Of a DNA stretch of 64,000 nt, positions 46,544 to 62,429 are shown piece after piece. The DNA comes from a virus. Position numbers and translations under genes: made by a program. The notes under the pieces were generated by a model. It made no database searches, was not told where the DNA came from, and saw only the letters and a program-made list of their open reading frames with translations. Where the stretch lies: positions 1 through 64,000 of the IMG/VR virus record IMGVR_UViG_3300048592_001371; one strand, written 5' to 3'. Every line of letters begins with the position of its first letter. The stretch's first letter is position 1.

Positions 46544-47450
46544 GATCACGAATTTCGACTTGTTCGTAGGGTACAATCAAAGGCCATGGACATTCTCTAC
46601 GAATCCTTCCGACAAGTTCATGGTCTGGTCGAAGCGCCTGAAGCGCAAAATCTTCCCCTTCCGAGACGAGCTAGCACAAGCGGCGCAAGAATTATCAGTA
46701 CGCGGACTAGGTCCCTTCTACGTTCTGTATTCTGGTGGCTACGACAGCGAAGCAATCCTAGCAGCCTTTCTGGAGAACGGTCTGCCTGTTGTCCCGATCA
46801 TGGTGCGATATACCGATGAGAGCAACTCGGAAGACTTTGAACACGGGCTAAACTACTTAGCCCACTACGAGATGTCTCCGATCATCTACGAGATAGATCT
46901 GGCGAAGTGGATACACTCACAGGAGTGTCGTGACCTAGCAGAGAAGGTGCAAGCCGGTGATCTAGCAACGACAGCCATCTACAAGGCTGTGCTAGATATG
47001 CCGCAACTGCGCGAAGGCTTCTTTATCATGGGTTTGCACGAACCAGCCATCTACGCCCAGGACACCGAAGAGAAGCGTGAATGGGTACTGCTGGAAGAGG
47101 AGAAGTGGTACGCACATCACAAATTCCTACTGGCCCACAATCTACGTGGGATAGGTGCCTTCATACACTACAGCCCGGAGCTTTACACGTCCTTCGTGGT
47201 CAATCCAGCGTACATGCGTGTGTATGCGAACATGTTCAATCCTGAGCTGTGGCAAGCCGAGTGGGTGAAGCATCAGTTGTTCTCAAAGTATCTGCGCTTG
47301 GAGCGTAGAGAAAAACGGACAGGGTTCGAAGCGATTCAAGGTGAGGTCAATCGTATCAACCACGAATGGATACGAGAGCACGAAGGATTGTGGGATAGGC
47401 ACTACGTGACGCCTGTCCTAGATTGGGTACGTGGAGTAGGCCACCTATGA
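46536..47450 (+). CDS. PP-loop ATP-dependent enzyme
   Basis: A 304-residue protein with the PP-loop SGGYDS (residues 66-71) in FYVLYSGGYDSEAILAAFLE, the ATP-pyrophosphatase signature shared by asparagine synthetase, GMP synthetase and QueC-type enzymes. It would adenylate a carboxylate, thiol or similar group and release pyrophosphate. It is more distant from the three asparagine-synthetase-like proteins downstream and lacks their GDGxD element. It overlaps both neighbours. The acceptor is unknown; amide formation is a reasonable guess from context. Confidence 0.65.
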   Translation: MSEITNFDLFVGYNQRPWTFSTNPSDKFMVWSKRLKRKIFPFRDELAQAAQELSVRGLGPFYVLYSGGYDSEAILAAFLENGLPVVPIMVRYTDESNSEDFEHGLNYLAHYEMSPIIYEIDLAKWIHSQECRDLAEKVQAGDLATTAIYKAVLDMPQLREGFFIMGLHEPAIYAQDTEEKREWVLLEEEKWYAHHKFLLAHNLRGIGAFIHYSPELYTSFVVNPAYMRVYANMFNPELWQAEWVKHQLFSKYLRLERREKRTGFEAIQGEVNRINHEWIREHEGLWDRHYVTPVLDWVRGVGHL

Positions 47451-47905
47451 ATATAGTCAAGATCACAAACGACAAAGACGTGATGCGTCTCATGCTGGAG
47501 GAAAAGCGACCTCTGCAACAGGTCTTTGGCGTAGAGAACGTCATGCGCGGCTACACTGACGAGCAAAGCGGCTACTTCGGCGTCTACAAAGAGCTCTGTT
47601 TGTCTAGTGCCTATCAGTGCTCGGCTTGGTCTGATGTCCTGTTCGTACATGACATCGTTGGAGCAATTCAGGATGTCTGGTTGCACATACGAAACGGACG
47701 CAACTTTGTAGCATACGTCCGAAAGGGTAACATGCCGAGCCTGGGGGAGCTAGAAGGTCTGTTTGGCCTTCCCGTCTTCGCCAACAGCACACGGAATTTG
47801 GACTACGCAATGCTCCATTCTCTGTTCAACTACGTTCTTCCTCAAGAGAACGGTTACGTTATAGCGAGCCAAAAATGGGACATTCCATTGATGATAAGCC
47901 TGTAA
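47447..47905 (+). CDS. hypothetical protein of enzyme block
   Basis: A 152-residue protein of unknown function (MNIVKITNDKDVMRLMLEEK). It contains two cysteines in LCLSSAYQCSAW and an aromatic, hydrophobic core. The ATG overlaps the previous stop, and the end overlaps the sulfotransferase by 31 bases, so it belongs to the same coupled operon. No motif recognised. Confidence 0.5.
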   Translation: MNIVKITNDKDVMRLMLEEKRPLQQVFGVENVMRGYTDEQSGYFGVYKELCLSSAYQCSAWSDVLFVHDIVGAIQDVWLHIRNGRNFVAYVRKGNMPSLGELEGLFGLPVFANSTRNLDYAMLHSLFNYVLPQENGYVIASQKWDIPLMISL

Positions 47906-48762
47906 TCATTTGCTCCTTCCCGAGGAGCGGCAGTACGTTGCTTCAACGATTGCTGAACACACATGACGATCTATGCATCTGGGGAGAGAACCTCGGTCTT
48001 CTGACAGCTATGCTAGACCAGATTGCAGCCTTGCGCTGGACGGGAACAGATCCCAAGACAGCGGCCCAAGTCAAACAATCTTCCGAATTTTCTCCGGTCA
48101 GCACTCCCTACACGGCTTTCGATCTGCAAGAAGCGTTCAAGAAACTCCTCGTCGGCTTTTACGCTAGAGGGTTGAAAGAGAATATACGCTGGGGCTACAA
48201 AGACCACAATCACTACTACCCATTCGATCTAATTGAGATCAACAAGATATTCCCCGGGGCTCAGTTCATCGTATTGAGAAGGAACGGTCCAGACTGTTGC
48301 ACGAAAGCTATATTGGCGCCTTGGGTGCGCGAGAAGATAGAAGGCACTCCGAGCCTGTTAGGAGTAGACGTGCGTGCCAGTATGGACAGCTTGGTCTCTT
48401 CCGTCATTCTCACCTATCTGCAATTCAACACCTTCGCTTCGAACGTCTACAAAAACAGAACAGACGTGAGGGTGATTGAGTACGAGGATCTGGTGCGAAG
48501 TCCTGAGCATGTGATCGAGCACTTGTCGCAATTCTTGAATCTACGGCAGGACGGCTGGAATATTGAAGCCTTCGAGACACAGCTATCAACGAAGCTGGGG
48601 AAAACGCCCAGTCAGGGAAGCTATGGCTTCATGACAGAAGAGTTGGTACGGGAGTACGTGGACAAGTGGTGGAGGAAACTGGTAGTAGAGGGCAACGTCG
48701 AACGGCGAGAGCGTGATCTTCGTTGGAACGTTGTGACGGGTAGACACTGGCGCTGGTACTGA
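47875..48762 (+). CDS. PAPS-dependent sulfotransferase, enzyme block
   Basis: A 295-residue sulfotransferase. The 5'-phosphosulfate loop is SFPRSGSTLL (residues 14-23), GYKDHN lies at 107-112, and the 3'-phosphate motif is LRRNGPDCCTKAI (134-146). It would move a sulfo group from PAPS to an unknown acceptor in the pathway. The start is the only ATG before the loop and lies inside the previous gene. It is not closely similar to the sulfotransferase at 36863 beyond the motifs. An APS kinase ends the same operon. Confidence 0.85.
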   Translation: MGHSIDDKPVIICSFPRSGSTLLQRLLNTHDDLCIWGENLGLLTAMLDQIAALRWTGTDPKTAAQVKQSSEFSPVSTPYTAFDLQEAFKKLLVGFYARGLKENIRWGYKDHNHYYPFDLIEINKIFPGAQFIVLRRNGPDCCTKAILAPWVREKIEGTPSLLGVDVRASMDSLVSSVILTYLQFNTFASNVYKNRTDVRVIEYEDLVRSPEHVIEHLSQFLNLRQDGWNIEAFETQLSTKLGKTPSQGSYGFMTEELVREYVDKWWRKLVVEGNVERRERDLRWNVVTGRHWRWY

Positions 48763-48769: not shown

Positions 48770-49189
48770 ATGACTTCTGTTCGTGTATCGCAAGAGAAAC
48801 TGAAAACAGGCTCGCTGGACGTGGCGGAACTGGTTCTGGAAACCCAGCTCGATCTAGCGCGTAGAAACATTACCGCTGCGTACTTCCCAATACGAGAGGA
48901 ACTGGACGAGACATTAGTTCTGCGCGCCATGAACGGAGAACTGGCGGCTGTTCTCGTTTGGCGAAAGTATGTCGACTCTATCTGGATCATCATAGCAGCC
49001 GTGAAGGATGGCTTCCGAGGGCAAGGACTGCATCAACTGCTGCATCAAGAACTGGACAAGGTAGCGCGCCAACTTGGCATCGGCGTCATTGAGACGTATG
49101 TCGGGACAGAGAACAAATCAGTGCTGCGGTCCTACGAAAAGATGGGTATTACGCCACAGATGTACTACATCAAGAAAAAGGTGCCGTAA
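48770..49189 (+). CDS. GNAT acetyltransferase, copy 1
   Basis: A 139-residue GNAT-fold acyltransferase. The acetyl-CoA motif A is R83-G-Q-G-L-H in FRGQGLHQLLHQ, and YEKMG lies at 122-126 where the catalytic tyrosine is usually found. It would acetylate an amine using acetyl-CoA. It directly precedes and is coupled to a radical SAM gene (TAATG). Two further copies lie at 50652 and 52542. Confidence 0.75.
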   Translation: MTSVRVSQEKLKTGSLDVAELVLETQLDLARRNITAAYFPIREELDETLVLRAMNGELAAVLVWRKYVDSIWIIIAAVKDGFRGQGLHQLLHQELDKVARQLGIGVIETYVGTENKSVLRSYEKMGITPQMYYIKKKVP

Positions 49190-50655
49190 TGCTGTTGGAG
49201 AACGTCGATCTGTTGCTCATTTCGGATTGCTACGAAACTCCGTATGTAAGGTATAGCGGCCCCTACGTCCTCGCTTCCTACCTTCGCAGGCATGGTCTGA
49301 GAGTGCAGGTAGTAGACTACTTTTCCCGCTTCACAGATACCGAGATAGAAACCATAGTAGACGTGTGCGTTGGCTCCAATACCAAGGCGGTAGGAGTATC
49401 GGATACATTCTCCGGCAAGCCCTTGCATGAGCTCGCAGATGGATCGACCTATGGTTGGCCCTTCTTCGAGAGGCATGACAGGATACGTCGCTTCATCGGC
49501 AATGTCAAGCGCAAGAATCCGAAAACGCGACTGTTGATGGGTGGGCAAAAGACCACTCAAGGACTAAGCGCCGGGTACATAGACACATACTTCCATGGGT
49601 TCGCCGAACAGTCACTTCTCGCTTATCTACAAAGCGAAGGACATGAAGTTCCACGTGTCGTCAAAGAAGCCACCATCCCGAATTGGAAAGACATCCCAAC
49701 CATTCATCACGAGTCCGACAACATCCTCGAAGGAGAAACGCTGCCGTTAGAAGTGTCTCGTGGCTGTATCTTCAACTGCAAATTCTGCTCATACCCCCGT
49801 CGAAATGCCAAGGACTTGAACTACATAAAGTCGGAGGAAGCTATCTACCAGCAGCTTCTGCACAACTATGAGCAATATGGCACTACCTGTTACACGCTAC
49901 TGGACGATACGCACAACGATTCGAAAGCCAAACTCGAAACCATTCGGAACGTTCTAGATCGTCTGCCGTTCAGCATCGAATTTGCTACCTATCTGCGGCT
50001 CGATCTGATAGCCAAAGATATGTCCACCGCGGAGTTGCTCATACGAAATGGACTACGTGGAGCCTTCTTCGGAATAGAGACACTACACAAGGAAGCGGGA
50101 CGACTCGTTGGAAAAGGCCTAGAGCCTGACGAAACGAGAAAGGCGCTGCGAAAATTACGGGAGTTGTGGGGAAACGAAGTAGGAACGCAAGGTGCTTTCA
50201 TCCTAGGCTTGCCGAAACAGCCAGAAGCTGATGTGATACTGATGTGCGAAGAGGTCTGCGACCCTTCCTTCCCGTTACATGGCCCAATATTCTTTCCGTT
50301 GATCATGTATCCAGGCAGGACAAATCCCTCACCGTTCGAGAAAAATCCGTCCCTATACGGGATACGCTTGGAGGAAGGGGATCGGCACGGGTATTGGCAT
50401 AATAGTGAAACCGGCATGGACTTCGAACGCGCGATAGAGATTCAAAACGAATACACGACGCGCATCTACCGCAATCACAGACGCCAATGTGGAGGTTTCT
50501 TGCCCATCATGGCAGTTAATCTAGGTATCAAAGCGCGGGACTTAATCGGCATGCCCGCGAGGGTCGCTCATAAGAAGTACAATATGCAGTCGAGGGAGTC
50601 TCCCTATTTGGCAAAGTACAAAGCAAAGGTTCTGGGAACAACGGAGGGGCAATGA
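49189..50655 (+). CDS. B12-type radical SAM enzyme, copy 1
   Basis: A 488-residue enzyme. The N-terminal 150 residues look like a cobalamin-binding Rossmann domain (YSGPYVLASYLRRHGLRVQV, LLMGGQ), without the classic DxHxxG. The radical SAM cluster ligands are C193, C197 and C200 in SRGCIFNCKFCSYPRR. It would make a 5'-deoxyadenosyl radical for methylation, C-C bond formation or another alkylation. It starts MLLENVDLLL, as do copies 2 and 3, on a TAATG overlap with the GNAT gene. Substrate unknown. Confidence 0.85.
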   Translation: MLLENVDLLLISDCYETPYVRYSGPYVLASYLRRHGLRVQVVDYFSRFTDTEIETIVDVCVGSNTKAVGVSDTFSGKPLHELADGSTYGWPFFERHDRIRRFIGNVKRKNPKTRLLMGGQKTTQGLSAGYIDTYFHGFAEQSLLAYLQSEGHEVPRVVKEATIPNWKDIPTIHHESDNILEGETLPLEVSRGCIFNCKFCSYPRRNAKDLNYIKSEEAIYQQLLHNYEQYGTTCYTLLDDTHNDSKAKLETIRNVLDRLPFSIEFATYLRLDLIAKDMSTAELLIRNGLRGAFFGIETLHKEAGRLVGKGLEPDETRKALRKLRELWGNEVGTQGAFILGLPKQPEADVILMCEEVCDPSFPLHGPIFFPLIMYPGRTNPSPFEKNPSLYGIRLEEGDRHGYWHNSETGMDFERAIEIQNEYTTRIYRNHRRQCGGFLPIMAVNLGIKARDLIGMPARVAHKKYNMQSRESPYLAKYKAKVLGTTEGQ

Positions 50656-51074
50656 AGGTAACATTCAGGACGGAGAAGGTATTTGAGTTGAACAACGAGG
50701 TCATAAAATTCATACTGTTGTCCTATGTCGAACTCCTGGATAGAAGTTTGTCCGGTATGGGAATTCCCTTCGCGAATACCGACGACGTTCTCATGGCTAC
50801 GAACGAAAAAGGGGACTTGACCGGCTGTATTGTGCTGAGGAAAACGAACGACGCCATCCCTACCTACTGGGTGATCCTAACGGCTGTGAAGCAAGAGTTC
50901 CGTGGTAAGGGACTGCATAAGCAAATGCACAGTCGCCTAGATGCGATTGCTCGGGCCAACGGCATCCAGTACATCTCATCCTACGTCTCTCCGAACAACA
51001 AGGAAAGCTTGAGGGCGTATGAGAAATTCGGCGCAGAACAGTCTATGATAAAGATCAACCGGAAGGTCTCGTAA
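50652..51074 (+). CDS. GNAT acetyltransferase, copy 2
   Basis: A 140-residue GNAT protein, paralogous to copy 1. RGKGLH at 84-89 is the acetyl-CoA loop and YEKFG at 123-127 the C-terminal motif. It lies between two radical SAM genes and overlaps both (ATGA before, TAATG after). Duplicated GNAT-radical SAM pairs suggest one chemical step repeated on different positions or substrates. Confidence 0.75.
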   Translation: MKVTFRTEKVFELNNEVIKFILLSYVELLDRSLSGMGIPFANTDDVLMATNEKGDLTGCIVLRKTNDAIPTYWVILTAVKQEFRGKGLHKQMHSRLDAIARANGIQYISSYVSPNNKESLRAYEKFGAEQSMIKINRKVS

Positions 51075-52540
51075 TGCTGTTAGAGAACGTCGACTTGCTA
51101 ATCGTTAGCGATTTCGCCAATCCCATCTACAAGTCACGCTACAGCGGTCCATACGTTCTCGCCTCCTACCTTCGCAGATTGGGTCTGCGCGTTCAGATAG
51201 TTGATTACATCTCCGAATTCTCGGACGAACAACTGCGGGATATCGTAGACGTTTGTGTCGGGAAGAATACCAAGGCCGTTGGCATTTCTGACACCTTCAG
51301 TTACTTCCAGACACACATGAACGCCAATCGAGTGAATGAGTTCACGATAGCGGGTTGGCCTTTCCTACGAGAGGAGCGGATCAAGGCCTTTGTCGCTAGA
51401 ATCAAGGGTATCAACCCCGATACGCAGATCATCATGGGTGGTGCTAAGTCGACGCGCTTCGATCAACCCGTTCCCTACGTAGACGTTCTATTCAGAGGAT
51501 TTTCCGAAGCGTCCCTAGCAAAGTATCTGATGTCCCGTCACCTGGGTTTGAACAGTTCGTCCTTCGTCGAGGAGCTTCCGATAGATGATTGGATAGACAC
51601 GGTCACTCATATGAGTCCGGAAGACAACCCCTTGGTCAACGAAACCGTTCCTTTGGAAATCTCCCGCGGATGCATATTCAACTGTAAATACTGTTCATAC
51701 CCACGTAAGGGAGCGAAGGACTTCGATTACATCAAGACGGAGGAATCGCTCTACCAAACGCTCTTTACGAACTACTCGGAGTTCGGCATTCGTCGCTACA
51801 TGCTGACGGATGATACGCACAACGATTCGATGTTCAAGCTTGAGCGCTTGCATCGCGTCACTCAACGGCTTCCCTTCAAGATCGAGTATAGCTCGTACAT
51901 CCGAGTCGACTTGCTTCACCGCTATCCTGAGATGATAGACCTGTTGAAAGAGATAGGTCTGAAAGGAGCGATGATGGGGATAGAAACCTTGAATTGGGAA
52001 ACGGGCAAGATAATCGGCAAAGGATTGCAGCCTAAGAAAACGATTGAAACGCTCCAGCTCTTACGTGAGAAGTGGGGCGACACGATCGGTACCCAAGGTA
52101 TGTTCATTCTTGGTTTGCCGCGCCAATCATACAAGGATGCTATCGCGATGTGTGAACGCATAAGCGCAGAAGACTTCCCATTGCATGAGGCACTATTCTT
52201 CCCTCTGTATTTCTTGACCCAGGCTCGCGTCAAGTCGGCTTTCGATATGGACTACGAAAGTTTCGGGTACAAGGTAGAGGGAAAAACGTGGGTCAACGAT
52301 CAAGGGATGACGTCCGAACAGGCAACAAAGCTGGCTAGGTATTACACGAACAAGAACAGAAAGAGCGGGCGTGAGAAGTTCGGTGGCAATCTGCCATTAC
52401 AGCTAGCCAATAGCGGATATGTCGTCGACGACTTGATAGGGAAACCGTTGGGCTCGTTTTTCGAGTCTGAGGAAGCAAAGGGACGCACTACTGAATATGT
52501 GCGTCGATACAAACGAAAACTTTTTGACGTAGAGGAATGA
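51074..52540 (+). CDS. B12-type radical SAM enzyme, copy 2
   Basis: A 488-residue paralogue of copy 1 with the same N-terminal start (MLLENVDLLIVSD) and layout. Cluster ligands are C200, C204 and C207 in SRGCIFNCKYCSYPRK. The N-terminal domain has YSGPYVLASYLRRLGLRVQI. Conserved DDTHNDS, GIETLNWETGKIIGKGLQ and IGTQGMFILGLP segments are shared by all three copies. Coupled to the GNAT gene before it. Confidence 0.85.
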   Translation: MLLENVDLLIVSDFANPIYKSRYSGPYVLASYLRRLGLRVQIVDYISEFSDEQLRDIVDVCVGKNTKAVGISDTFSYFQTHMNANRVNEFTIAGWPFLREERIKAFVARIKGINPDTQIIMGGAKSTRFDQPVPYVDVLFRGFSEASLAKYLMSRHLGLNSSSFVEELPIDDWIDTVTHMSPEDNPLVNETVPLEISRGCIFNCKYCSYPRKGAKDFDYIKTEESLYQTLFTNYSEFGIRRYMLTDDTHNDSMFKLERLHRVTQRLPFKIEYSSYIRVDLLHRYPEMIDLLKEIGLKGAMMGIETLNWETGKIIGKGLQPKKTIETLQLLREKWGDTIGTQGMFILGLPRQSYKDAIAMCERISAEDFPLHEALFFPLYFLTQARVKSAFDMDYESFGYKVEGKTWVNDQGMTSEQATKLARYYTNKNRKSGREKFGGNLPLQLANSGYVVDDLIGKPLGSFFESEEAKGRTTEYVRRYKRKLFDVEE

Positions 52541-52541: not shown

Positions 52542-52976
52542 ATGGAACTAAAAATCCATAGTATTTCCATCATGCGCGTGTCAAACGATGTGCTGTCATT
52601 CATCCTTCGTACAATGGCCGATTTGGTAGAGGACGGACACTCGGGAAGAGGAATCGCTGTTACCAATGCGGACCACGTAGTCGTAGCAAGGCGTTCTGAC
52701 AATGGCGAACTCGTAGGAGTGCTTGTCTACGTAATAAATAGGCCGAAGGATTTGCTGTGGGTAAATCACGCCGCCGTCAAAGAGCAATATCGCGGACAGG
52801 GGATACATCGAAAGATGCATGCGATGCTCAAAGACATCGCCCGAAAGGAGAATGTCTACGAAGTTGGTTCCTACGTCTCTATTGAAAACAGGGCGAGTGT
52901 AGGGGCGCACAGCAAACGACCCGGCGTCAAGTTCCCAATGATGCGAGTATCCGTGCCCGTTACAGAGGACAAGTAA
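52542..52976 (+). CDS. GNAT acetyltransferase, copy 3 (divergent C-terminus)
   Basis: A 144-residue GNAT protein. The acetyl-CoA loop RGQGIH is intact at 84-89, but the YEKxG motif of copies 1 and 2 is replaced by AHSKRPGVK, so the usual catalytic tyrosine is missing. It may use another base, bind without catalysis, or be degenerating. AGAGGA precedes the ATG. It is coupled to the helical-domain protein that follows. Confidence 0.65.
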   Translation: MELKIHSISIMRVSNDVLSFILRTMADLVEDGHSGRGIAVTNADHVVVARRSDNGELVGVLVYVINRPKDLLWVNHAAVKEQYRGQGIHRKMHAMLKDIARKENVYEVGSYVSIENRASVGAHSKRPGVKFPMMRVSVPVTEDK

Positions 52977-53602
52977 TGAAACAATTCCGACGATTTTGGT
53001 TCTGCGTTGATCTACGCGACAATACTGTGCTGTATCTGGAGCACGACTTCGGTCACAATCAGCCTCCTGGAATAGACCCGGAGGCAAACGTCTTCCCTCT
53101 TGCGGGTATGTTCCCGACCGATTTTACACCGGCGACGTGTGCGAAATTCGAGTACGTCGATGGGGCACAAGTAGCATTGAAGAAGGAGAAGCTAACCCAG
53201 CGCCAAAGTCTGTTGCGCCAAAAATACGTAGCTTTGGCAAAGATCATGAAAGTGGTCTACTGGGGCAGAACGAAGGTCAACAAAGGTTGGCTGCAGCAGG
53301 ACGCCGTCTACAAAATGAAGTTGGACGCGGCTGTTGCCTATCTCAACAAAGAAGAGAATCCTCCGGGCCTAGCAATGCTGCAACATGAAGCCGATTTGCG
53401 GAAAACGACCGTCTATGCGATGGCGAAAGCAATAACCATCGCGGCGCAGGATAACGAGCGCATCCTGATCGACACGGAGAACTTTCGTCAGGAGTGGACT
53501 CAAAAAATCCGAGCTTGCTCAAGTCTGCTAGAGCTGCAGCAAGTGATGGATACTCTCCGCAGCGAAAGCTACATTCCGGTCACTATGGGGTTCCTGCAAT
53601 GA
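52976..53602 (+). CDS. helical-domain family protein, copy 2
   Basis: A 208-residue protein of unknown function in the family of the tail-module protein at 45108. It starts with strands (FWFCVDLRDNTVLYLEHDF) and has a C-terminal helical domain (YKMKLDAAVAYLNKEENPPG, TVYAMAKAITIAAQDNERIL, CSSLLELQQVMDTLRSE). It overlaps the asparagine-synthetase-like gene by ATGA. The same order is found twice more downstream. It may be a carrier, substrate or partner of that enzyme, or a tail protein modified by it; this is inference. Confidence 0.5.
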   Translation: MKQFRRFWFCVDLRDNTVLYLEHDFGHNQPPGIDPEANVFPLAGMFPTDFTPATCAKFEYVDGAQVALKKEKLTQRQSLLRQKYVALAKIMKVVYWGRTKVNKGWLQQDAVYKMKLDAAVAYLNKEENPPGLAMLQHEADLRKTTVYAMAKAITIAAQDNERILIDTENFRQEWTQKIRACSSLLELQQVMDTLRSESYIPVTMGFLQ

Positions 53603-54621
53603 AATTCCTCGTCTTCCAACCAATGCCGAATACGGCGCACAAAGGACTGGCCCAGACACAGGTGGTGATAGGGAACTGCAATTCTCCGATCTCTCGTCTG
53701 AACCGATTCAAGACAGGGGACGTGCTCGATTACAAGTGCGTCTACCCAATCTTGGATTTGCGGACGGATATCAAAATGGCGGATCCGTTCGCCGAGTTCG
53801 ACGCGGCAATGTTGGCCGCGGCCGGTCGTATTCGAGACTTCTCCGAGAAGAACAATGTTCCTGTTCACGTGATGTGGAGCGGCGGTCTAGACAGCACCTG
53901 TGCCTTGGTAGCCCTTGTTCGGGCTGGCGTCCGACCGGTTGTGTTCTTGCATGGATATTCGATCCACGAGAACCCAACAATGTTCTACCAATTCGTCAAG
54001 GACTACGAAGTAGCACACGTCCGAGACACGGACAGGCTGTTCTCCGGGGCCGTTGTTATGGGTGAAGCCGGGGATCAACTCTTTGGTTCGGACATGATGA
54101 TCAAAATGCACAGGCGAGACCTGTTCGCTCCGAATTGGAAGGACTCGATCATCAACAATCTGAAAGAACGCGGACGCAGTCTTCTGGATACATTCTTGCC
54201 TATAGTGGATGAATGTCCACGACAGATCGAGTGTGCGGCCGATTTCTTTTGGTGGTGGAACTTCTCGCAGAAGTCTCAAGCGGTAGCTCTGCGCTACTTG
54301 ATAAACGCGAAGGATCCGGCGGACGCGGCCACGCGCTGGAGCCCTATCTTCATGGACAAGCAAATCCAGGAATGGTCGTTGAACGCACCGAGAGAGGCAA
54401 AGATCGATCCAAGCGTTGGCGTACCTAGCTACAAGCTGGCCATTCGTCGGTTCATTTCCAAGTACGCCAGCCCAGATTATGTACTGCCTTCGAAGATAGG
54501 TAGTTTGTATCGGACAATGATCATCTCGCAGCACAAACACCCCGCACTCGATGAGAACTATAACAAGGTGTCTGCGCTCGATGTCGACAAGCAACTACAC
54601 GTGAATTGGAGCTTCGCCTAA
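53599..54621 (+). CDS. asparagine-synthetase-like amide ligase, copy 1
   Basis: A 340-residue protein with the synthetase half only of class-B asparagine synthetases. The PP-loop is SGGLDST (residues 94-100), GEAGDQLFG lies at 155-163, and a C-terminal SYKLAIRRFISKY segment leads to PSKIGS with the likely catalytic lysine. There is no N-terminal Cys glutaminase domain, so the amine must come from ammonia or another compound, as in beta-lactam synthetase-type and lasso-peptide cyclases. It is preceded by a helical-domain protein and followed by a radical SAM gene (TAATG overlap). Confidence 0.75.
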   Translation: MKFLVFQPMPNTAHKGLAQTQVVIGNCNSPISRLNRFKTGDVLDYKCVYPILDLRTDIKMADPFAEFDAAMLAAAGRIRDFSEKNNVPVHVMWSGGLDSTCALVALVRAGVRPVVFLHGYSIHENPTMFYQFVKDYEVAHVRDTDRLFSGAVVMGEAGDQLFGSDMMIKMHRRDLFAPNWKDSIINNLKERGRSLLDTFLPIVDECPRQIECAADFFWWWNFSQKSQAVALRYLINAKDPADAATRWSPIFMDKQIQEWSLNAPREAKIDPSVGVPSYKLAIRRFISKYASPDYVLPSKIGSLYRTMIISQHKHPALDENYNKVSALDVDKQLHVNWSFA

Positions 54622-56078
54622 TGCTGTTGGAGAACGTTGATCTACTGATCCTTAATGAGTTCTCTGATCCGTACTTCAAAGTGAGGTACTCGGGACCTTA
54701 CGTGCTTGCTTCGTACCTGCGTAATCGAGGATACCGTGTTCAAATACTCGACTATGTTTCGCATTTCACGGATGCTCAGTTGGTAAAGGCGCTACGAGTA
54801 TGCGTCGGCCCGAAAACGTTGGCTGTTGGCCTAGCCGGAACCTTCACGGTTTCCTTGAAGGCGACGTATTCGGCCAAGGATACGCCGGAGGCACGTACTG
54901 GATGGCCACTATGTCAGCCACGGCGCATCGACTTGTTCCTCGACACTGTACGGTCTATCAACCCAGAGACAAAGATCATCATGGGTGGGCATAGACACGG
55001 GTATGACTACCCGAGAGACGTGGACACCCTGTTCTTGGGGTTTTCCGAGGTATCTCTGTTCAATTACCTCGAGACTCTAAGAATAAACAACAGCTGGGTT
55101 CCCAAAGTCGTCCAGGAAGAAAAGCAAGAGGGTTGGAACAGAGACGTTTTTCTGTACTCGGAGGAGGACAACATCCTTCCCGGCGAGACGCTGCCTCTTG
55201 AGATTTCTCGCGGTTGTATTTTCAACTGCAAGTATTGCACGTATCCAAGACGCGGGGCGAAGGATTTCACCTACGTCAAAGACGAGGATGTGATACGTAC
55301 TCAACTGTCACACAACTATGACAAGTTCGGGGTTCTGAATTACACGCTGACGGATGACACACACAACGACACTGAAGAAAAACTGAAACGTCTCATTCGT
55401 GTTCAGAAGGAGTTGGGCATTCAAATACGCTATTCGGCGTATGCTCGTCTGGACCTCATTCATACCTTCCCACACACCGCGGACCTTCTATTCCAGGCCG
55501 GTATGCGTGGTCCCATGTTTGGCATCGAGACGCTGAATTGGGAAGCCGGGAAGATGATTGGCAAGGGCTTGCACCCAGACAAAGTCCGTGCGACATTGCA
55601 CCGACTACGCGCAGAATGGGGAGACGAAGTAGGCACGGAGGGGATGTTCATTCTCGGCTTGCCTAAGCAAAGTCGGTTAGACATGGTACGAATGGCCAAG
55701 GAACTGATGGATCCTTCGTTCCCTTTGCATTACGTGATTTTCTACGCCCTGATCATACAACCGTTGAAGGAAGACTCGGCCTTCAATCGAGAACCCGAGA
55801 AGTTTGGGTACGATACTTCAGTCAAAGCGGCGGGGAACTGGGTACGTGATGATGGTTTTACTGCTGACGAAGCGCGGCAGATGCAAATACTCTATACCAA
55901 TCAGATGATCGAGACGCAGCGAAACAAGTTTGGTGGTGTTCTACCGTTCTTGGTATCGAACGGTGGACGCTCTCTGCAAAGCATGATTGGAAAGCCATTG
56001 GAGTTGTCGCAGCGTGATTACATTGACGCGACACGCTACATGGAACGTTATCTAGCCAAGGTGTTTTCGGAGGACTAA
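54621..56078 (+). CDS. B12-type radical SAM enzyme, copy 3
   Basis: A 485-residue paralogue of copies 1 and 2 with the same start (MLLENVDLLILNE). Cluster ligands are C199, C203 and C206 in SRGCIFNCKYCTYPRR. The N-terminal domain includes YSGPYVLASYLRNRGYRVQI and KIIMGGHRHG. The ATG at 54621, on the TAATG overlap with the ligase gene, is chosen because it matches the starts of the other two copies; a start five codons upstream is also open. Confidence 0.85.
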   Translation: MLLENVDLLILNEFSDPYFKVRYSGPYVLASYLRNRGYRVQILDYVSHFTDAQLVKALRVCVGPKTLAVGLAGTFTVSLKATYSAKDTPEARTGWPLCQPRRIDLFLDTVRSINPETKIIMGGHRHGYDYPRDVDTLFLGFSEVSLFNYLETLRINNSWVPKVVQEEKQEGWNRDVFLYSEEDNILPGETLPLEISRGCIFNCKYCTYPRRGAKDFTYVKDEDVIRTQLSHNYDKFGVLNYTLTDDTHNDTEEKLKRLIRVQKELGIQIRYSAYARLDLIHTFPHTADLLFQAGMRGPMFGIETLNWEAGKMIGKGLHPDKVRATLHRLRAEWGDEVGTEGMFILGLPKQSRLDMVRMAKELMDPSFPLHYVIFYALIIQPLKEDSAFNREPEKFGYDTSVKAAGNWVRDDGFTADEARQMQILYTNQMIETQRNKFGGVLPFLVSNGGRSLQSMIGKPLELSQRDYIDATRYMERYLAKVFSED

Positions 56079-56942
56079 ATGTATTGGAACAGGTTGTTTG
56101 ACGACGTGGTTGACTTCACCCAGCATCGGTATTACTCACAGTTCGAGAATCTGAAATCCACGAACCCGCAGAATTTTCGCTGCGACCCACTAGCCCCGAG
56201 TCCTGTTCTTTTCTTGGGTTCCTGTGACATGGGTGGTCCTGTCAATAACGCAGACGAAGTGTGGCCGCGACGCGTGTATAGAAAACTATGTGAGTCGCAG
56301 GGGCGGTTCCCGTACATGGCTTTGTCCAAGATCAGCTCTGGACTAGAAGCCACGTTGCGTCGACTGTACATCTACTGCGAACTCGTAGGTCCGCCGAAAG
56401 TGCTCTATATGGTCATGCCTCGGCCAGTAAGCATTGAAATTCCTGTGAAGCGGTCGATGACAGATCCTCTCGTTGGAGTAACGGACATAGAGCGATACTT
56501 GACGTTCCTCGGCAAACTCCCAACAATCACAACCGAAGAGGTGTTCCTCTTCAAGAAGATTTCTGAGGTACTGATCGGTTTGTCTGAGAATGAGTCGTAC
56601 CAACTGTACCAGTTTGAAAAAGGGACCGCCTTCTTGCAGACGCTCTGTCGTTTGCACAATATCGAGTTACGCTGGACGCCCAATCTTAGTGCCACTGCCA
56701 TAGAGTACTACGCCAAATACTTTTCTCTGTTCCTGAGGGAGAATGATTTCATGCGGCAGACGTGTCTGGGTGTTGGCAAGGCTCTGGATTTCTCAGGCGA
56801 CGGATCTGTGGGCGACGAGACACAGGGCGTTATCGCTAATCTGATGCTGGATGGCAAACCCGGTGAATTTTCTCTAGACGCAACAAAGAAGCAGCTGGTC
56901 GAGAACTTGGAATTCAAACGCACAACCCTGGAGGAAAAATGA
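56079..56942 (+). CDS. SGNH-hydrolase-like protein
   Basis: A 287-residue protein. SPVLFLGSCDMGGPVNNADE followed by VWPRRVYRKL and VLYMVMPRPVSIEIP follows the layout of phage SGNH/GDSL-like proteins, where a GxS block, a WP segment and a late P-x-R segment recur. The catalytic histidine block near the C-terminus is not clear (DGSVGDETQGVIANLM has no His). It may be an esterase, an acyltransferase or an inactive binding protein. CGGAGGA precedes the ATG, and the stop overlaps the next gene. Confidence 0.35.
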   Translation: MYWNRLFDDVVDFTQHRYYSQFENLKSTNPQNFRCDPLAPSPVLFLGSCDMGGPVNNADEVWPRRVYRKLCESQGRFPYMALSKISSGLEATLRRLYIYCELVGPPKVLYMVMPRPVSIEIPVKRSMTDPLVGVTDIERYLTFLGKLPTITTEEVFLFKKISEVLIGLSENESYQLYQFEKGTAFLQTLCRLHNIELRWTPNLSATAIEYYAKYFSLFLRENDFMRQTCLGVGKALDFSGDGSVGDETQGVIANLMLDGKPGEFSLDATKKQLVENLEFKRTTLEEK

Positions 56943-57547
56943 TACCACTACACGTAGCAAATCTCAATACACGGGACTATGTCCATGGCACGTCTATCAT
57001 GACAGGGCTGACGCGCTTCCTACTAGAAAATCACGATACCGTAACGGAATTCACCTTCCGTCTGTACAAGAAGCTCCTGACTTTGCCGCTACTGAGCATT
57101 ACCGAGAAACAGGTCGACAATCCAAAGGACTACGTCGCTACGGGTTCCTTCATGGGAAACGGCTCGCAATGGTTCTTCCAAATTCAGCCTTCAGTCCTTC
57201 CCGTGGAGCACGTTCTGCACATTGACGAGTCCGCTCTAGTAAATAGGATAGAACTGAGAGGAGACAGGTACGTCATAGACGTTGAAGAAAAAGACGACGT
57301 CTTTGTCACCTGGAATGCCATATCAAAGACGCACAACCTGAGAGTGTTCAGCGAGCTCGGCGTGACAAAGCCGGGTGGCCAGACATGGCTAACAGGACAA
57401 ACATTCAAAGACTTGTCCTTCTTGAGAACTCGGCCTGCGACATTGGGAAATTCGGTCGCGTTTCAGAGACTGTCCGAGCGCTGTATCAAACATGACATGT
57501 ACTACGACGAGGCAATAGTCGGAGACAAGACTATAGTCTATGCCTAA
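56939..57547 (+). CDS. hypothetical protein of enzyme block
   Basis: A 202-residue protein of unknown function starting MIPLHVANLNTRDYVHGTSI. Two Trp-containing beta stretches (GSQWFFQIQPSVLPVEHVL, KPGGQTWLTGQTFKDLSF) suggest a mainly beta, possibly double-psi or cupin-like fold, though no metal motif is visible. It is coupled to the SGNH-like gene by ATGA. No family recognised. Confidence 0.5.
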   Translation: MIPLHVANLNTRDYVHGTSIMTGLTRFLLENHDTVTEFTFRLYKKLLTLPLLSITEKQVDNPKDYVATGSFMGNGSQWFFQIQPSVLPVEHVLHIDESALVNRIELRGDRYVIDVEEKDDVFVTWNAISKTHNLRVFSELGVTKPGGQTWLTGQTFKDLSFLRTRPATLGNSVAFQRLSERCIKHDMYYDEAIVGDKTIVYA

Positions 57548-57556
57548 GGGGACATA

Positions 57557-58165
57557 ATGCTGCAACTTGCTATCGATGTGACGGATGGTACGGTCATATA
57601 TGCCTTACCGGATGCGTACCGAATCTGCATGCCCAAATTGCGGACATGGATAGAAAACATCATACTCGATGTTCGGCTTCCCAAGGATTTCCCGATACGC
57701 GCATTAGGTTCACAGAATTTTGTCCGTATAGGGCTGGAAATTCAACGACGGGTGGATAGCGTCCCGGAAGCAGCTATGCTTCTGAATCTGAAATACCACT
57801 CCGTGGACAAAGTGAACATGCTGGTTAATGGACATCGCTTTGCAACGATGAACAAGTTGCTGTTGCAACCACGAGTGTACGAGCTAAAAATAGCGGAGGC
57901 TGAAGCCGTATTGAAGTCGGGCTCCAGTTTGGAGCCCGTAGAAAACGCGCCTATGCTGATAGAGGAAGCAAAAGCGCGGGGCCTATCTGTACGAGATGTT
58001 GCCAAGACTGTTCTACTGGCCAGAGACGATCAGGACGACATGCTGAAAAGGACGGAAGGTATGCGAATATCCGCCACTATTCGCATCTCCGAGGCAAAAA
58101 CACCGCAAGAGGTTTTCGAGATAATGTCGGGCTTCGAGGAAAGTTTCCACAACCGAGGCCTATGA
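57557..58165 (+). CDS. helical-domain family protein, copy 3
   Basis: A 202-residue protein clearly homologous to copy 4 at 59166: both have LAxDxxDxTxIYAxPxxYR, an LPxxFPIRxLxSQxFV stretch, ALLNxKYxxxD, and NGxRFAxxNKLLxQxRxYExK. The C-terminal helical domain runs to TPQEVFEIM. It overlaps the following asparagine-synthetase-like gene by ATGA. GGGGA precedes the ATG. Unknown role; the fixed pairing with the ligase is the main clue. Confidence 0.55.
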   Translation: MLQLAIDVTDGTVIYALPDAYRICMPKLRTWIENIILDVRLPKDFPIRALGSQNFVRIGLEIQRRVDSVPEAAMLLNLKYHSVDKVNMLVNGHRFATMNKLLLQPRVYELKIAEAEAVLKSGSSLEPVENAPMLIEEAKARGLSVRDVAKTVLLARDDQDDMLKRTEGMRISATIRISEAKTPQEVFEIMSGFEESFHNRGL

Positions 58166-59169
58166 TGAGACCGTTGATCTACATAGGTACTCCTAGATAT
58201 CGAAACAGGGTTTTGCGTACTCTGTACCAAGTTCTGCATATCGACGTACCGATGTCTCGTTGTGCTTATCAGGAGTGCAACGTCGTCCCAGTCAGTCATG
58301 CTTTCCCTTTGATGTCCGAACATCGAATAGCGCCGTGTGCCCAGCCGCTTTATGAATTAGAACGCTTGGTCCTAGACAGGGCGACACAGCTTGTGTCGGA
58401 ATCGTCTCAGACGGGAAGGCCCATTTGCGTTAAATACTCCGGTGGTCTGGATAGTATGTTGGCACTCCTGGCCTTCGAACGAATTTCCGCAGAATACAAA
58501 GTCTTCCTGACGCCCAACTCCATCAAAGAAAATCCCACCGTCTTCAAAAAGTTCATTGCCCATCGTGAGTATTTTCACGCGAACGACCCTTCTGTCTTTG
58601 ACGGGCTCGTGATAACAGGAGACGGAGGGGATGCTCTATTTCTAGACGCTATCGTTAAAGGGCCGCAGATGAGGCATGGCGATGCGGTATTGGACTGGGA
58701 CTGGAAAGACGGTTTCGTGAAGGGTATGTGGGGCACGCCAGAAGAGAACAAGTTTGTCTTGGGACTACTAGAGCCGGCGATGCACGATTGTCCCTGGCCA
58801 GTGAAGACGGTTCGGGACTTCTTCGCTTGGACTGGCCTAGCGATCTTCTACCAACCGGAAGTATTGCGTTGGCTTCCTACACTACAGGATCCAAAGAAGA
58901 ACTGGCCTTGGGTCCGGCCGTTCTTTGCAACGAAGGAATTCGTGGAGTGGTCTCTTGGGCAAGAGCCGAAAATCAAGTATCCAAGTACGTCTGACTACAA
59001 ACCAACATTCCGAAAACTGTGTGAGAAATTTTCGGGACTGGATCTATCGGACATGAGGAAAGACTTCTCGCTAGGTAAGACGAGGGGTGCTGCTCCTATG
59101 GTGGTAGGCGTGATGGAAGACTTGACACACGTCACCACCGAAGGAATCGAAAAACTGGTAAAGGAATGA
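58162..59169 (+). CDS. asparagine-synthetase-like amide ligase, copy 2
   Basis: A 335-residue synthetase-only asparagine synthetase homologue. It has SGGLDS at 93-98, GDGGDALF at 153-160 and a C-terminal YKPTFRKLCEKFSGLDLSD-MRKDF segment that holds the catalytic lysine position. The N-terminus carries PMSRCAYQECNVVPV in place of the glutaminase domain, nearly the same as copy 3. It lies between two helical-domain genes and overlaps both. A second ATG follows directly and could also serve as start. Confidence 0.78.
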   Translation: MMRPLIYIGTPRYRNRVLRTLYQVLHIDVPMSRCAYQECNVVPVSHAFPLMSEHRIAPCAQPLYELERLVLDRATQLVSESSQTGRPICVKYSGGLDSMLALLAFERISAEYKVFLTPNSIKENPTVFKKFIAHREYFHANDPSVFDGLVITGDGGDALFLDAIVKGPQMRHGDAVLDWDWKDGFVKGMWGTPEENKFVLGLLEPAMHDCPWPVKTVRDFFAWTGLAIFYQPEVLRWLPTLQDPKKNWPWVRPFFATKEFVEWSLGQEPKIKYPSTSDYKPTFRKLCEKFSGLDLSDMRKDFSLGKTRGAAPMVVGVMEDLTHVTTEGIEKLVKE

Positions 59170-59801
59170 ATATGGGCGCTCCGAATCTCTATCAACTCGC
59201 GGTTGATACACACGACAATACCATCATCTATGCGATGCCGGAAAGTTATCGGTTGTCCCTGCCAGATTTGAGAACCTGGGTGGAGAACAAACTGTTCTAC
59301 GGAAGCTTGCCTGAAGGCTTTCCAATACGCAATCTGGATAGTCAAAAGTTTGTGCTATCTGAGGGAAAGGTCCTAGCACGGAAGGACGAGGTTCGGGAAG
59401 GTGTCGCTTTGCTGAACGTGAAGTATTGGGCGATCGATCAGGTTCTAATGATCATCAACGGACAACGCTTCGCGGTAACAAACAAGCTGTTGATGCAGGA
59501 TAGGATATACGAGGCAAAGGTCGAGGAAGCGCGTCTGATTCTGGCAAGACAAGACGAGGAGCTCAGGAAGTCACACTTTGAGACATCTTGTCCTATGCTG
59601 TATGCTGAGTCCGAGGACAAAGGACTGAGTCTAAACGTCGTAGCAAAAACAGTGATGGTAGCATACGAAGAACAAATGTCTCGCTTGAAGAAAACGGAGA
59701 TCATGCGAATGGCGATAACGAACAAAATCGCCAATGCCGAGACAGAGGAACAAGTTCGGGCTCTGTTGAAGGACGTCAAACTCTATTTCTACACGAGATG
59801 A
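59166..59801 (+). CDS. helical-domain family protein, copy 4
   Basis: A 211-residue paralogue of copy 3, with LYQLAVDTHDNTIIYAMPES, LPEGFPIRNLDSQKFVL and GVALLNVKYWAIDQVLMIIN. The C-terminal helices (YEAKVEEARLILARQDEELR, LNVVAKTVMVAYEEQMSRLK, AETEEQVRALLKDVKL) match the phage tail-associated type. Its start overlaps the stop of ligase copy 2, and its stop overlaps the start of copy 3; an ATG two codons later is an alternative start. Confidence 0.55.
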   Translation: MNMGAPNLYQLAVDTHDNTIIYAMPESYRLSLPDLRTWVENKLFYGSLPEGFPIRNLDSQKFVLSEGKVLARKDEVREGVALLNVKYWAIDQVLMIINGQRFAVTNKLLMQDRIYEAKVEEARLILARQDEELRKSHFETSCPMLYAESEDKGLSLNVVAKTVMVAYEEQMSRLKKTEIMRMAITNKIANAETEEQVRALLKDVKLYFYTR

Positions 59802-60805
59802 AACTCCTCAGCTACCACAACAATCCGATGTTCAAGAACAGGACGTTGAATACATTCTTCAACGTGCTCAACGTCGAGGCACCTATGTCTAGGTGTTCTT
59901 ACCAAGGATGCAATGTCCTACCTGTTCATCACTTGTTGCCTCCAATGTCGGAGTATGCAATACGTGTCGTTTCGCAGCCGGGTGCCGAGCTGGAGACGAT
60001 AGTCGAAGCAAGGGTGCGCGAGCTGGTCAACGAAGCACGCCAATTTGATCTGCCAATTCACCTCAAGTACTCTGGTGGTTTGGACAGCCTGCTCGTGCTG
60101 CTCATGTTACATAGGTGTGACGCGGATTTCGTTGTCTATCTGACTCCCGATTCCATCAAAGAGAACCAAGACGTATTCAAGAGATATGTCTCGAACCGAG
60201 ATTTCAAACACGTCAATTGTCCTAGTCTGTTCGACGGACTGATAATTTCAGGAGACGGGGCCGATGCTCTGTTCATAGACATGCTGGCAACAAGCGTAGT
60301 TTCCAAACACGGAGAGACGTCCTTGGATTGGAAATGGGAAGAAGGCTTTGTGAAAGGCATGTACGGAACGGAACAAGAGAACAACGAAGTGCTCGAATTG
60401 CTCTTTCCCGCTCTCGACGAATGTCCTTGGGAGGTAGAGACAGTTCGGGACTTCTTCGCTTGGACTGGCCTAGCGATCTTCTACCAGCACGAGACGTATC
60501 GTTGGCTTCCGACCATGCCTAATCCGGCAGAGAATTTCGCGCGCTTCCGACCGTTCTTTCCAACGAAGGATTTCGTCGAATGGTCTTTGGGACAGGAAAC
60601 GAAGGCCAAGTTTCCGAGCTTCACCGATTACAAACCGGCATTTAGGAAGCTGTGCGAAAAGCTAACGGGTCTTGACTTTTCCTACATGCGGAAAGACTTT
60701 TCGCTGTGGAAGACCGTAGCAGGTAATCGTCTGCATCCCGGTGTCAAAGATGATCTCTCGATTGCAACTATCGAAGAAATAGAACAGGCCGCTATCTATC
60801 CATGA
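59798..60805 (+). CDS. asparagine-synthetase-like amide ligase, copy 3
   Basis: A 335-residue paralogue of copy 2 with SGGLDS at 92-97, GDGADALF at 152-159, TVRDFFAWTGLAIFYQHETY and the C-terminal YKPAFRKLCEKLTG then MRKDFSLWK. The DNA of copies 2 and 3 is also similar around the TVRDFFAWTGLAIFYQ region, so the duplication is fairly recent. It overlaps the PLP decarboxylase by ATGA, which could supply the amine it uses. Confidence 0.78.
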   Translation: MKLLSYHNNPMFKNRTLNTFFNVLNVEAPMSRCSYQGCNVLPVHHLLPPMSEYAIRVVSQPGAELETIVEARVRELVNEARQFDLPIHLKYSGGLDSLLVLLMLHRCDADFVVYLTPDSIKENQDVFKRYVSNRDFKHVNCPSLFDGLIISGDGADALFIDMLATSVVSKHGETSLDWKWEEGFVKGMYGTEQENNEVLELLFPALDECPWEVETVRDFFAWTGLAIFYQHETYRWLPTMPNPAENFARFRPFFPTKDFVEWSLGQETKAKFPSFTDYKPAFRKLCEKLTGLDFSYMRKDFSLWKTVAGNRLHPGVKDDLSIATIEEIEQAAIYP

Positions 60806-61908
60806 CCGCAAATCTTCTCGATATGTACAAGCCCTTCGTCGAGGACTATCAAGGACCGTGTCTTGTCATCGACCGGGCCTCGATTTTCGAGCGCATAAAA
60901 CGCTTCCTTCGCGCGGTGCCGAACGTCCTCCCGTATTATGCAATGAAGGCGAACCCGCATCCCGGTGTTCTACAGACGGTTTCGGACGCGGGTATAAACT
61001 TTGACGTTGCCTCGGCAGACGAGATTCTCTTGCTGGAGCGTACTGGTCTGAACGTGCGTCATGTGCTGTTCAGCAATCCTGTCAAGAAACCAAGCGACAT
61101 CGCTTACGCAGCTTGGAATGGCATTCAGAACTATGCAATAGATAGCCAAGAGGAAATGTTCAAGATACTGTCTATCGTGCCGCACGCCAAGATGTACGTT
61201 CGTTTGTCTTTGCCACCCAGCACCGCGGATTCCCCACTCAATGACAAATTCGGTATTGACTTGTATGAGCTAGAAGGCCTGCTCCGGATAGCTAAAACGG
61301 TCAAGGCGGACATCTGTGGAGTAACATTCCACGTTGGCTCTCAATGTCGCTATCTCGACAGTTGGGGAGACGCTATAGGAATTGCTCTCAAAGCCGGCGA
61401 GATGCTTCTGCGCGAAGGCTTTCGGTTCGAGTTGCTCAACCTGGGTGGCGGCTTTCCCGTTTCCTACACGCGTCCAATACCTGAGATCGAAGACATTGGT
61501 CTGGTGCTGGATAGGCTGTTGCAAGATCTGCCGAAAGAAACACGAGTGGTTGCCGAGCCGGGACGACACCTGGTTGCGGAATCAGGCATGCTGATCTGCC
61601 AAGTAATAGCAACCTCTACGAGGAAGGGTACTCGTTGGGCCTACTTGGATGTCGGTACATACAACGGATTGGTAGAAACGATCCAAGGCGTTGAGTGTAA
61701 TTTCTGCTATACGCAAGAAGGCGACACGGATCTTTGGAATGTAGCGGGTCCAACGTGTGATTCAAACGACATCATGTCTAAGAGGGTCCGTCTACCCCGG
61801 AATCTGGCAACTGGAGATTTTCTCTATGTGCCGAATGCCGGGGCCTATTCGGTAGCCAGTGCAAGTACATTCTGCGGAGCACACATTCCGGAGGTTATCC
61901 TATTGTGA
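60802..61908 (+). CDS. PLP decarboxylase, ornithine/diaminopimelate type
   Basis: A 368-residue alanine-racemase-fold decarboxylase. PLP-binding Lys49 lies in YYAMKANPHP, with HVGSQC at 177-182, GGGFP at 215-219, EPGRHLVAES at 252-261, GPTCDSND at 316-323 and AGAYS at 346-350. The GPTCDS form fits ornithine or lysine decarboxylases better than diaminopimelate decarboxylase. The expected product is a di- or polyamine such as putrescine, but a peptide-linked or modified substrate cannot be excluded. It overlaps both the ligase before and the APS kinase after it. Confidence 0.85.
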   Translation: MTANLLDMYKPFVEDYQGPCLVIDRASIFERIKRFLRAVPNVLPYYAMKANPHPGVLQTVSDAGINFDVASADEILLLERTGLNVRHVLFSNPVKKPSDIAYAAWNGIQNYAIDSQEEMFKILSIVPHAKMYVRLSLPPSTADSPLNDKFGIDLYELEGLLRIAKTVKADICGVTFHVGSQCRYLDSWGDAIGIALKAGEMLLREGFRFELLNLGGGFPVSYTRPIPEIEDIGLVLDRLLQDLPKETRVVAEPGRHLVAESGMLICQVIATSTRKGTRWAYLDVGTYNGLVETIQGVECNFCYTQEGDTDLWNVAGPTCDSNDIMSKRVRLPRNLATGDFLYVPNAGAYSVASASTFCGAHIPEVILL

Positions 61909-62429
61909 ATCATGGACGCGTACTGTGGCTGACAGGTTTGAGTGGGTCGGGCAAGACCACTCTGGCTTGGGCACTTGACGAATTCCTACAACGCAAAGGA
62001 ATTGCTACTTCTGTCATCGACGGAGACGAGATACGCAAAACCCTGTGTAAGGATCTGGGGTATACGGCGGAGGACAGAACAGAGAACCAGCGGCGCATCG
62101 CAGGACTGGCGAGAAAACAAGCCGATCTCGACCTCACAGTAATCGTGGCCACCATCAGCCCGAGATTCAAACATCGGGTACTGGCCGAAGAGATAATCCA
62201 CCCGATCGACTTCTACGAAATCTACCTAGCCACTCCCCTCGAAGAATGCGAGAGGCGCGATCCGAAAGGGATGTACGCCAAAGCCAGAAGAGGGGAGATC
62301 AGTGCCTTCACCGGAGTTACCGATCCGTATGAGGAACCCGAACACCCCGATGTGAAAATCCCTCCGTCTTTCTCCCTCCGAGAAGCACTTCAAGCAATCG
62401 AACGGTCTGTCCGTTTCACGATTCTCTAG
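61905..62429 (+). CDS. cysC: adenylylsulfate (APS) kinase
   Basis: A 174-residue APS kinase. The Walker A motif is GLSGSGKTT (residues 11-19), followed by DGDEIRKTLCKDLGYTAED and RTENQRR, and the C-terminal GMYAKARRGEISAFTGVTDP loop with YEEPEHPDV. It phosphorylates APS to PAPS, the sulfate donor of the sulfotransferases at 36863 and 47875. APS itself would have to come from the host ATP sulfurylase, as no such gene is in the window. Start is GTG within the overlap with the decarboxylase, with GGAGG upstream. It ends the enzyme block. Confidence 0.92.
   Translation: MNHGRVLWLTGLSGSGKTTLAWALDEFLQRKGIATSVIDGDEIRKTLCKDLGYTAEDRTENQRRIAGLARKQADLDLTVIVATISPRFKHRVLAEEIIHPIDFYEIYLATPLEECERRDPKGMYAKARRGEISAFTGVTDPYEEPEHPDVKIPPSFSLREALQAIERSVRFTIL

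Follow-up and report, generated by a model that had tools for sequence, protein, structure and literature searches.

Why would a phage carry three asparagine-synthetase-like ligases, and why is a small helical protein encoded in front of each of them? We address this question for positions 1 to 64,000 of the IMG/VR virus record IMGVR_UViG_3300048592_001371 (the window, 64 kb of a record of 123,553 bases). The record contains sheath, baseplate and fibre genes, hence the virus is a contractile-tailed phage. We call the helical proteins H2, H3 and H4 and their ligases AS2, AS3 and AS4; H1 is a fourth helical protein of the same window. The most interesting outcome is that viral, glutaminase-less, predicted amide ligases are often encoded behind receptor-binding genes.

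Three units with a repeated order

A preliminary description of this DNA had noticed three helical protein-ligase pairs of identical order, overlapping by ATGA and duplicated as a whole. The three pairs are indeed present at the positions that it gave, and the reading frames are right. Each time the H gene comes before the ligase gene, and the two share the 4 nucleotides ATGA.

52976..53602, + strand: H2, helical protein, first gene of unit 2 (phrog_21671, E 2.7e-7)
53599..54621, + strand: AS2, predicted asparagine-synthetase-like amide ligase without glutaminase domain (SGGLDS, GEAGDQLFG, K..SL)
57557..58165, + strand: H3, helical protein of unit 3 (phrog_21671, E 1.8e-4)
58162..59169, + strand: AS3, predicted amide ligase of unit 3 (GDGGDALF variant)
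59166..59801, + strand: H4, helical protein of unit 4 (phrog_21671, E 2.8e-4; AlphaFold2 model)
59798..60805, + strand: AS4, predicted amide ligase of unit 4 (model matches the synthetase domain of beta-lactam synthetase, ASNS and AsnB)

Joint duplication of both members is clear for the tandem H3-AS3-H4-AS4 (43.5% identity between H3 and H4, 55.4% between AS3 and AS4). The distance of unit 2 to units 3 and 4 is roughly equal, at 21-26% identity for H and 27-30% for AS.

Overlaps of 1 or 4 nucleotides are found at 12 of the 15 junctions from 48770 to 62429. Five 4-nucleotide junctions lie outside the H-AS pairs (AS3-H4, AS4-decarboxylase, decarboxylase-APS kinase, radical SAM 1-GNAT 2 and 56079-56939; SAM, S-adenosylmethionine). 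The ATGA overlap is thus no evidence of a special bond between H and AS. What is distinctive about the units is their repeated order and their co-duplication.

It could be that H and AS have no special relation at all. Tight packing and tandem duplication would then have produced the pairs, and H2-H4 would be extra fibre-module proteins that were carried along. The many overlapping junctions favour this explanation, as does the triplication of the GNAT and radical SAM genes nearby. However, each of the three ligases has one of H2-H4 in front of it, even in the diverged unit 2, which is inserted between GNAT 3 and radical SAM 3. Of a neutral passenger one would expect loss in one of the units, yet both partners are intact at 21-55% identity. 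We regard chance packing as an unlikely explanation.

Ligases without a glutaminase domain

The ligases are 335-340 amino acids long and poorly recognised by existing models. AS2 reaches 13.2 bits with PF00733, for which the cut-off is 21, AS3 and AS4 have no listed match, and nothing in the whole record matches PF00733 above the gathering cut-off. The preliminary description had also claimed that the glutaminase half is absent, and this holds: a lead of only about 60-90 amino acids precedes SGGLDS, and no Pfam or NCBIfam model matches a glutaminase domain in AS2-AS4.

In an alignment of 17 viral sequences SGGLDS is invariant, together with E, F, R, K and S positions, of which K..S is C-terminal. 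Every ligase copy of the window retains G[E/D]xxD[Q/A]xF. The GExGD loop reads GDGGD or GDGAD in AS3 and AS4 and GMCGN in three related loci (L012, L018 and L022; loci carrying relatives are cited by such numbers). Hence the members need not all share one chemistry, although the motifs look competent in most of them.

The AlphaFold2 model of AS4 has a predicted local distance difference test (pLDDT) of 70.8 and a predicted template-modelling score (pTM) of 0.76; its N-terminal 50 residues are poorly predicted. In the PDB the model matches beta-lactam synthetase (Z 12.3), human asparagine synthetase (Z 12.3) and AsnB (11.9), followed by the hydroxyamidotransferase TsnB9 (Z 11.6) and carbapenam synthetase (about 10). 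Other PP-loop folds stay below 8. Fold and motifs together identify AS2-AS4 as AsnB-type synthetase domains that lack the glutaminase. They are predicted ATP-dependent amide ligases, the catalysis being suggested by fold and motifs.

Relatives of the ligases behind fibre genes

AS2-AS4 belong to a divergent, little described family, so far seen in viruses only. From two viral scans we obtained about 25 loci together with one isolate; the number of other viral lineages is about 12. In prokaryote genomes, two limited short-pattern scans gave no clear member (one was empty, the other returned one short local match in Rhizohabitans), which leaves absence from bacteria unproven. Among 50,697 phage records there is no close relative of H2, H3, AS2 or AS3, and the literature on asparagine synthetases with tail fibres or pelagiphages yielded nothing on the ligase family. 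No Pfam or NCBIfam model recognises the family, so its members are likely to be overlooked or misnamed in databases. The following two genes, for which the MnmA annotation is probably wrong, are of this kind:

PP179332.1 (L028), 6748-7656 and 7941-8897: two ligases of Pseudomonas phage Cygsa01, annotated tRNA 2-thiouridylase MnmA, immediately behind a Gly-rich adhesin

A fibre or adhesin gene precedes the ligase in four lineages; in two more the distance is a few genes. Cygsa01 and L017 share the order long-tail-fibre distal subunit with S74 chaperone, Gly-rich adhesin, ligase. A giant fibre-like gene, the ligase, a cupin and the head-tail adaptor Ad2 follow each other in L008, L014, L019 and L024. 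In L011 and L012/L018 the ligase has fibre genes and a radical SAM gene within a distance of a few genes, and in L004/L006 it is surrounded by capsid and tail genes. The order of fibre or adhesin, then ligase (and cupin) thus recurs in unrelated phages, one of them the isolate Cygsa01.

A conserved Cupin_2 protein of about 200 amino acids, encoded 3' of the ligase, is the most widely shared neighbour and occurs in the five lineages listed below. The record studied here yielded no copy.

L004, 5111-5707: Cupin_2
L005, 8832-9491: Cupin_2
L008, 8798-9424: Cupin_2
L014, 8331-8936: Cupin_2
L017, 4747-5364: Cupin_2 (one gene between)

These neighbourhoods have two further features. Cys-rich tails (..NCTSACACACNCGG, ..FINCRNCNC) end fibre or small proteins beside SPASM-like radical SAM genes and the ligase. 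Such loci look like a fibre-tip maturation cluster in the style of ribosomally synthesised and post-translationally modified peptides.

L011, 5395-5649 and 6131-7741: Cys-tail protein and radical SAM locus
L012, 2825-4060 and 5024-6415: Cys-tail protein and radical SAM locus
L018, 2774-3994 and 4990-6381: Cys-tail protein and radical SAM locus

Elsewhere, phage solute-binding proteins of the DctP or TctC kind adjoin ligase genes. The DctP-type proteins seem to have no signal peptide.

L012, 6670-7644: solute-binding protein
L018, 6658-7605: solute-binding protein
L022, 6733-7710: solute-binding protein
L026, 8946-9854: solute-binding protein
L045, 6828-7553: solute-binding protein

Helical proteins related to a tail-fibre-module protein

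H2, H3 and H4 all match phrog_21671, a family without known function. The preliminary description had likened them to a tail-module protein at 45108, and this resemblance proves to be true homology. The protein, H1, finds the H2-H4 profile with E 1.7e-9 in a hidden Markov model (HMM) search and with probability 91.5 and E 8.6e-7 in hhalign. Local alignment gives z 7.7-14 against shuffled sequences. Genes neighbouring H1 match tail fibre PHROGs.

45108..45758, + strand: H1, tail-fibre-module paralogue of H2-H4, after the fibre genes 40831-45060 (HMM, hhalign)
46536..47450, + strand: PP1, distant PP-loop protein (SGGYDS) outside the AS ligases, QueC-like at best

H1 had also been described as lying shortly upstream of a PP-loop gene. 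PP1 does carry a PP-loop, with weak similarity to QueC. The parallel to the H-AS pairs does not hold, because PP1 is distant from the ligases and is separated from H1 by another gene, which ends at 46543; H1 with PP1 is no fourth pair. A relative of PP1 occurs at 4952-8731 of L045 (L046 too), where three different PP-loop enzymes and a TctC-like protein are joined by 4-nucleotide overlaps.

An AlphaFold2 model of H4, built from the four H sequences (pLDDT 81.8, pTM 0.73), consists of five N-terminal strands and a helical body. Its best structural matches, phage proteins of about 200 amino acids, are uncharacterised. The helical matches of H in the PDB (Z about 5-7) were rejected as generic bundles. 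One of the phage relatives is E3SSU9 of Prochlorococcus phage P-HM2 (248 amino acids), which is PHM2_099 by our own assignment from length, position and a 13-bit profile match. PHM2_099 lies immediately behind the fibre-like genes PHM2_096-098 and belongs to T4-GC352 (phrog_1604), a family of Kyanoviridae cyanophages that is present in 112 cyanophage records. T4-GC352 comes next after the fibre gene T4-GC351 in P-SSM4, Syn33, P-HM2 and other phages, and the S-ShM2 homologue occupies the same place. Profile-profile comparison of H with T4-GC352 finds the helical domain in common (probability 87.8, E 3.4e-6, 111 columns), and T4-GC352 members weakly match phrog_21671 (E 0.002-0.0075). These sequence profiles confirm that the helical domain of H is homologous to that of T4-GC352.

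The position directly 3' of a fibre gene holds for H1 and the GC352 homologues but not for H2-H4. Scans of viral contigs with the H alignment gave no confirmed relative, so the distribution of H rests on profiles and structure. The best matches in BFVD are A0A6J5TBA6 for H4 and A0A6J5TBC6 for AS4. These accessions are near-consecutive and perhaps come from one phage with both genes.

For the helical protein, the preliminary description had considered three roles: substrate, carrier or adaptor. Judged by sequence, a carrier is unlikely, as H1-H4 contain no phosphopantetheine site of the GxDSL/DSL type. As regards a substrate, aligning H1-H4 revealed no conserved C-terminal acceptor, and a single invariant acidic residue, E178 (H4 numbering), located in a helix; no other obvious conserved acceptor appears. 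The adaptor role draws on the paralogy with H1 and on the T4-GC352 domain, which is encoded in the usual position of a fibre chaperone.

The link to the tail, in contrast, has become stronger than the preliminary description could show from sequence alone. H1 belongs to the fibre module, GC352 stands behind a fibre gene, and relatives of the ligases often stand behind fibre or adhesin genes.

A possible role in virion maturation

To explain the units, we propose that AS2-AS4 modify a tail-fibre protein, another virion protein or something attached to such a protein, and that each H serves as chaperone or adaptor, guiding its own ligase to a fibre substrate. We assign this tentative reading a probability of about 0.38. 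In a first step, AS would adenylate a carboxylate at the expense of ATP, as fold and motifs suggest. An amine would then attack; it would not be channelled from a glutaminase of the same chain. Judging from the neighbourhoods, the acceptor would be a virion protein, most likely a fibre. Finally, H would recruit the ligase to this acceptor, a step suggested by the ancestry of H and by the pairing. Enzymes encoded around the units (decarboxylase, GNATs, radical SAM enzymes, sulfotransferase, APS kinase) could be in charge of preparing the amine or of decorating the product, or could equally form a metabolite pathway of their own.

Several observations weigh against virion maturation. An H profile finds no H in 13 other ligase-bearing records, two of which are at least 134 kb long and one of which, Cygsa01, is complete. 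Likewise, a ligase profile finds no ligase in six complete cyanophage genomes with GC352. The fixed enzyme-partner relation of the preliminary description is therefore too strong a claim: H and ligase are found apart, and the pair is a feature of the present virus, not of the ligase family. This separation also favours the absence of any special H-AS relation. Close kin with the H-ligase pair may perhaps exist outside the searched collections. Moreover, L005, L021, L022 and L026 have no recognised fibre gene beside the ligase. Fibre loci are common insertion places for accessory genes, hence adjacency is no proof. In the window, 8-15 kb separate AS2-AS4 from the last fibre gene, and they are surrounded by GNAT, radical SAM, sulfotransferase and decarboxylase genes, a setting that a metabolic pathway fits equally well. 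The link of H to known fibre chaperones is faint. The fold list of H4 does include some DUF4376 proteins, a point in favour of the proposal, but low down, with E 0.016 or worse and a template-modelling score (query) of at most 0.39, and hhalign detects no similarity between H and gp27 of Alteromonas phage V22. By sequence, DUF4376 has no match in the H proteins at E<=1. V22 gp27 is a DUF4376 tail-fibre chaperone, encoded downstream of the fibre and essential for an active fibre (PMC7289586, PMC10579305). Given the missing sequence match to gp27, calling H chaperone-like is an analogy.

Proteins upstream of other ligases were considered as candidates for H and rejected. The 202-amino-acid protein of L005 resembles an H at first sight, with a beta start, a helical end and an ATGA overlap; its hhalign probability is 0.3, its profile score 0.4 bits and its z 1.8 at best. 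The corresponding proteins of L021 and L026 are likewise unsupported. A translationally coupled small partner before the ligase, unrelated to H or unproven as H, may still be a recurring plan in these three loci.

The surrounding cassette

The units lie in a dense cassette of enzyme genes, bracketed by a sulfotransferase and an APS kinase:

47875..48762, + strand: sulfotransferase (PF13469, E 3.4e-21)
48770..49189, + strand: GNAT acetyltransferase 1 (Pfam PF00583, E 4.6e-7)
49189..50655, + strand: B12-type radical SAM enzyme 1 (PF04055, E 8.8e-13)
50652..51074, + strand: GNAT-like 2 (36.5% identical to GNAT 1)
51074..52540, + strand: B12-type radical SAM enzyme 2 (PF04055, E 6.1e-16)
52542..52976, + strand: GNAT acetyltransferase 3, immediately 5' of H2 (PF00583, E 3.7e-9)
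54621..56078, + strand: B12-type radical SAM enzyme 3, immediately 3' of AS2 (PF04055, E 1.7e-13)
60802..61908, + strand: ornithine/lysine/diaminopimelate decarboxylase-like enzyme, immediately 3' of AS4 (PF02784, E 1.5e-49; ornithine decarboxylase structures, E 2e-52)
61905..62429, + strand: APS kinase (PF01583, E 7.8e-55; TIGR00455 above cut-off)

From 48770 to 56078 a GNAT gene and a B12-type radical SAM gene form a pair that occurs three times, with H2-AS2 inside the third. The radical SAM enzymes are 47-49% identical to each other; for enzyme 1, the B12-radical SAM matches in NCBIfam are far under the cut-off. Since these genes are triplicated too, the cassette in general tends to duplicate small modules. 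The decarboxylase is a possible source of the amine, and the flanking sulfotransferase and APS kinase suggest that the product of the cassette is sulfated with 3'-phosphoadenosine 5'-phosphosulfate.

These enzymes are the basis of the main rival explanation. During infection, the cassette could make a small conjugate (an amide or a polyamine) and sulfate it, with H as an accessory or regulatory protein. In favour of such a pathway are the decarboxylase immediately after AS4, the APS kinase, the sulfotransferase and the three GNAT and three radical SAM genes. In relatives, the ligase precedes a cupin or adjoins DctP- or TctC-like solute-binding proteins, which also suits small molecules. Yet ligase relatives are frequently found in structural modules of the virion, and the H proteins, with a paralogue in the tail-fibre module, are not known enzymes or regulators. 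We consider a small-molecule pathway doubtful.

Virion maturation can also be spelled out further, at the price of plausibility. H, as chaperone-adaptor or as acceptor, would present a fibre carboxylate to its own ligase. The ligase would add a decorated amine made by the cassette enzymes (decarboxylase, GNAT, B12 radical SAM enzyme, sulfotransferase), and the receptor-binding tip would be chemically retuned. Relatives would do likewise with cupin or radical SAM partners. This elaborate version is quite improbable. In either version, phage amide ligases that covalently modify tail fibres would add a new level to the control of host range.

Comparison with known systems

One phage ligase of this kind acts on DNA. 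In Synechococcus phage S-B43, the ligase CmoY attaches glycine to the 5-carboxymethylcytosine of DNA (PMC12783734). The ligases studied here could similarly couple an amine to a carboxylated base of the phage genome. Besides the experimental precedent of CmoY, an asparagine synthetase gene within a 7-deazaguanine cluster (QueC, TGT, QueE, GTP cyclohydrolase) of Achromobacter phage Motura (MN094788.1, L102, 17431-23200) points in this direction. However, PF00145 (C5-methyltransferase), TIGR00740 (CmoA) and PF01702 (TGT) are unmatched in the 123.5-kb record, which may be incomplete (the first two at E<=1, with working controls). Without a TGT in the record, 7-deazaguanine modification was rejected. 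Furthermore, the AS profile matches nothing in S-B43 in a profile search of the genome, as distinct from a direct alignment with CmoY, and relatives of the ligases often lie in virion modules. DNA hypermodification is therefore by far the least probable explanation.

CmoY nevertheless resembles AS as a phage-borne asparagine-synthetase homologue, and its amine is glycine rather than ammonia derived from glutamine (PMC12783734). Unlike what we propose for AS, its substrate is DNA, and it is encoded beside CmoA and CmoX, which were not found in the possibly incomplete record.

With AsnB, beta-lactam synthetase and carbapenam synthetase (PF00733) the ligases share the synthetase fold (Z 10-12), the SGGLDS PP-loop, the acidic GExGD loop and the C-terminal lysine. 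They differ from AsnB-type enzymes in lacking the N-terminal glutaminase-like domain, in their sub-cut-off PF00733 score and in their own lead of about 60-90 amino acids.

For the helical proteins, T4-GC352 offers a homologous helical domain encoded immediately behind a fibre gene, but the six complete genomes searched have no ligase and the N-terminal part is different. The DUF4376 chaperones (V22 gp27, A5 gp9) are of similar size to H (195-239 amino acids) and seem likewise to combine a beta element with a helical body. They are encoded next to fibres, whereas H2-H4 are not beside a fibre gene.

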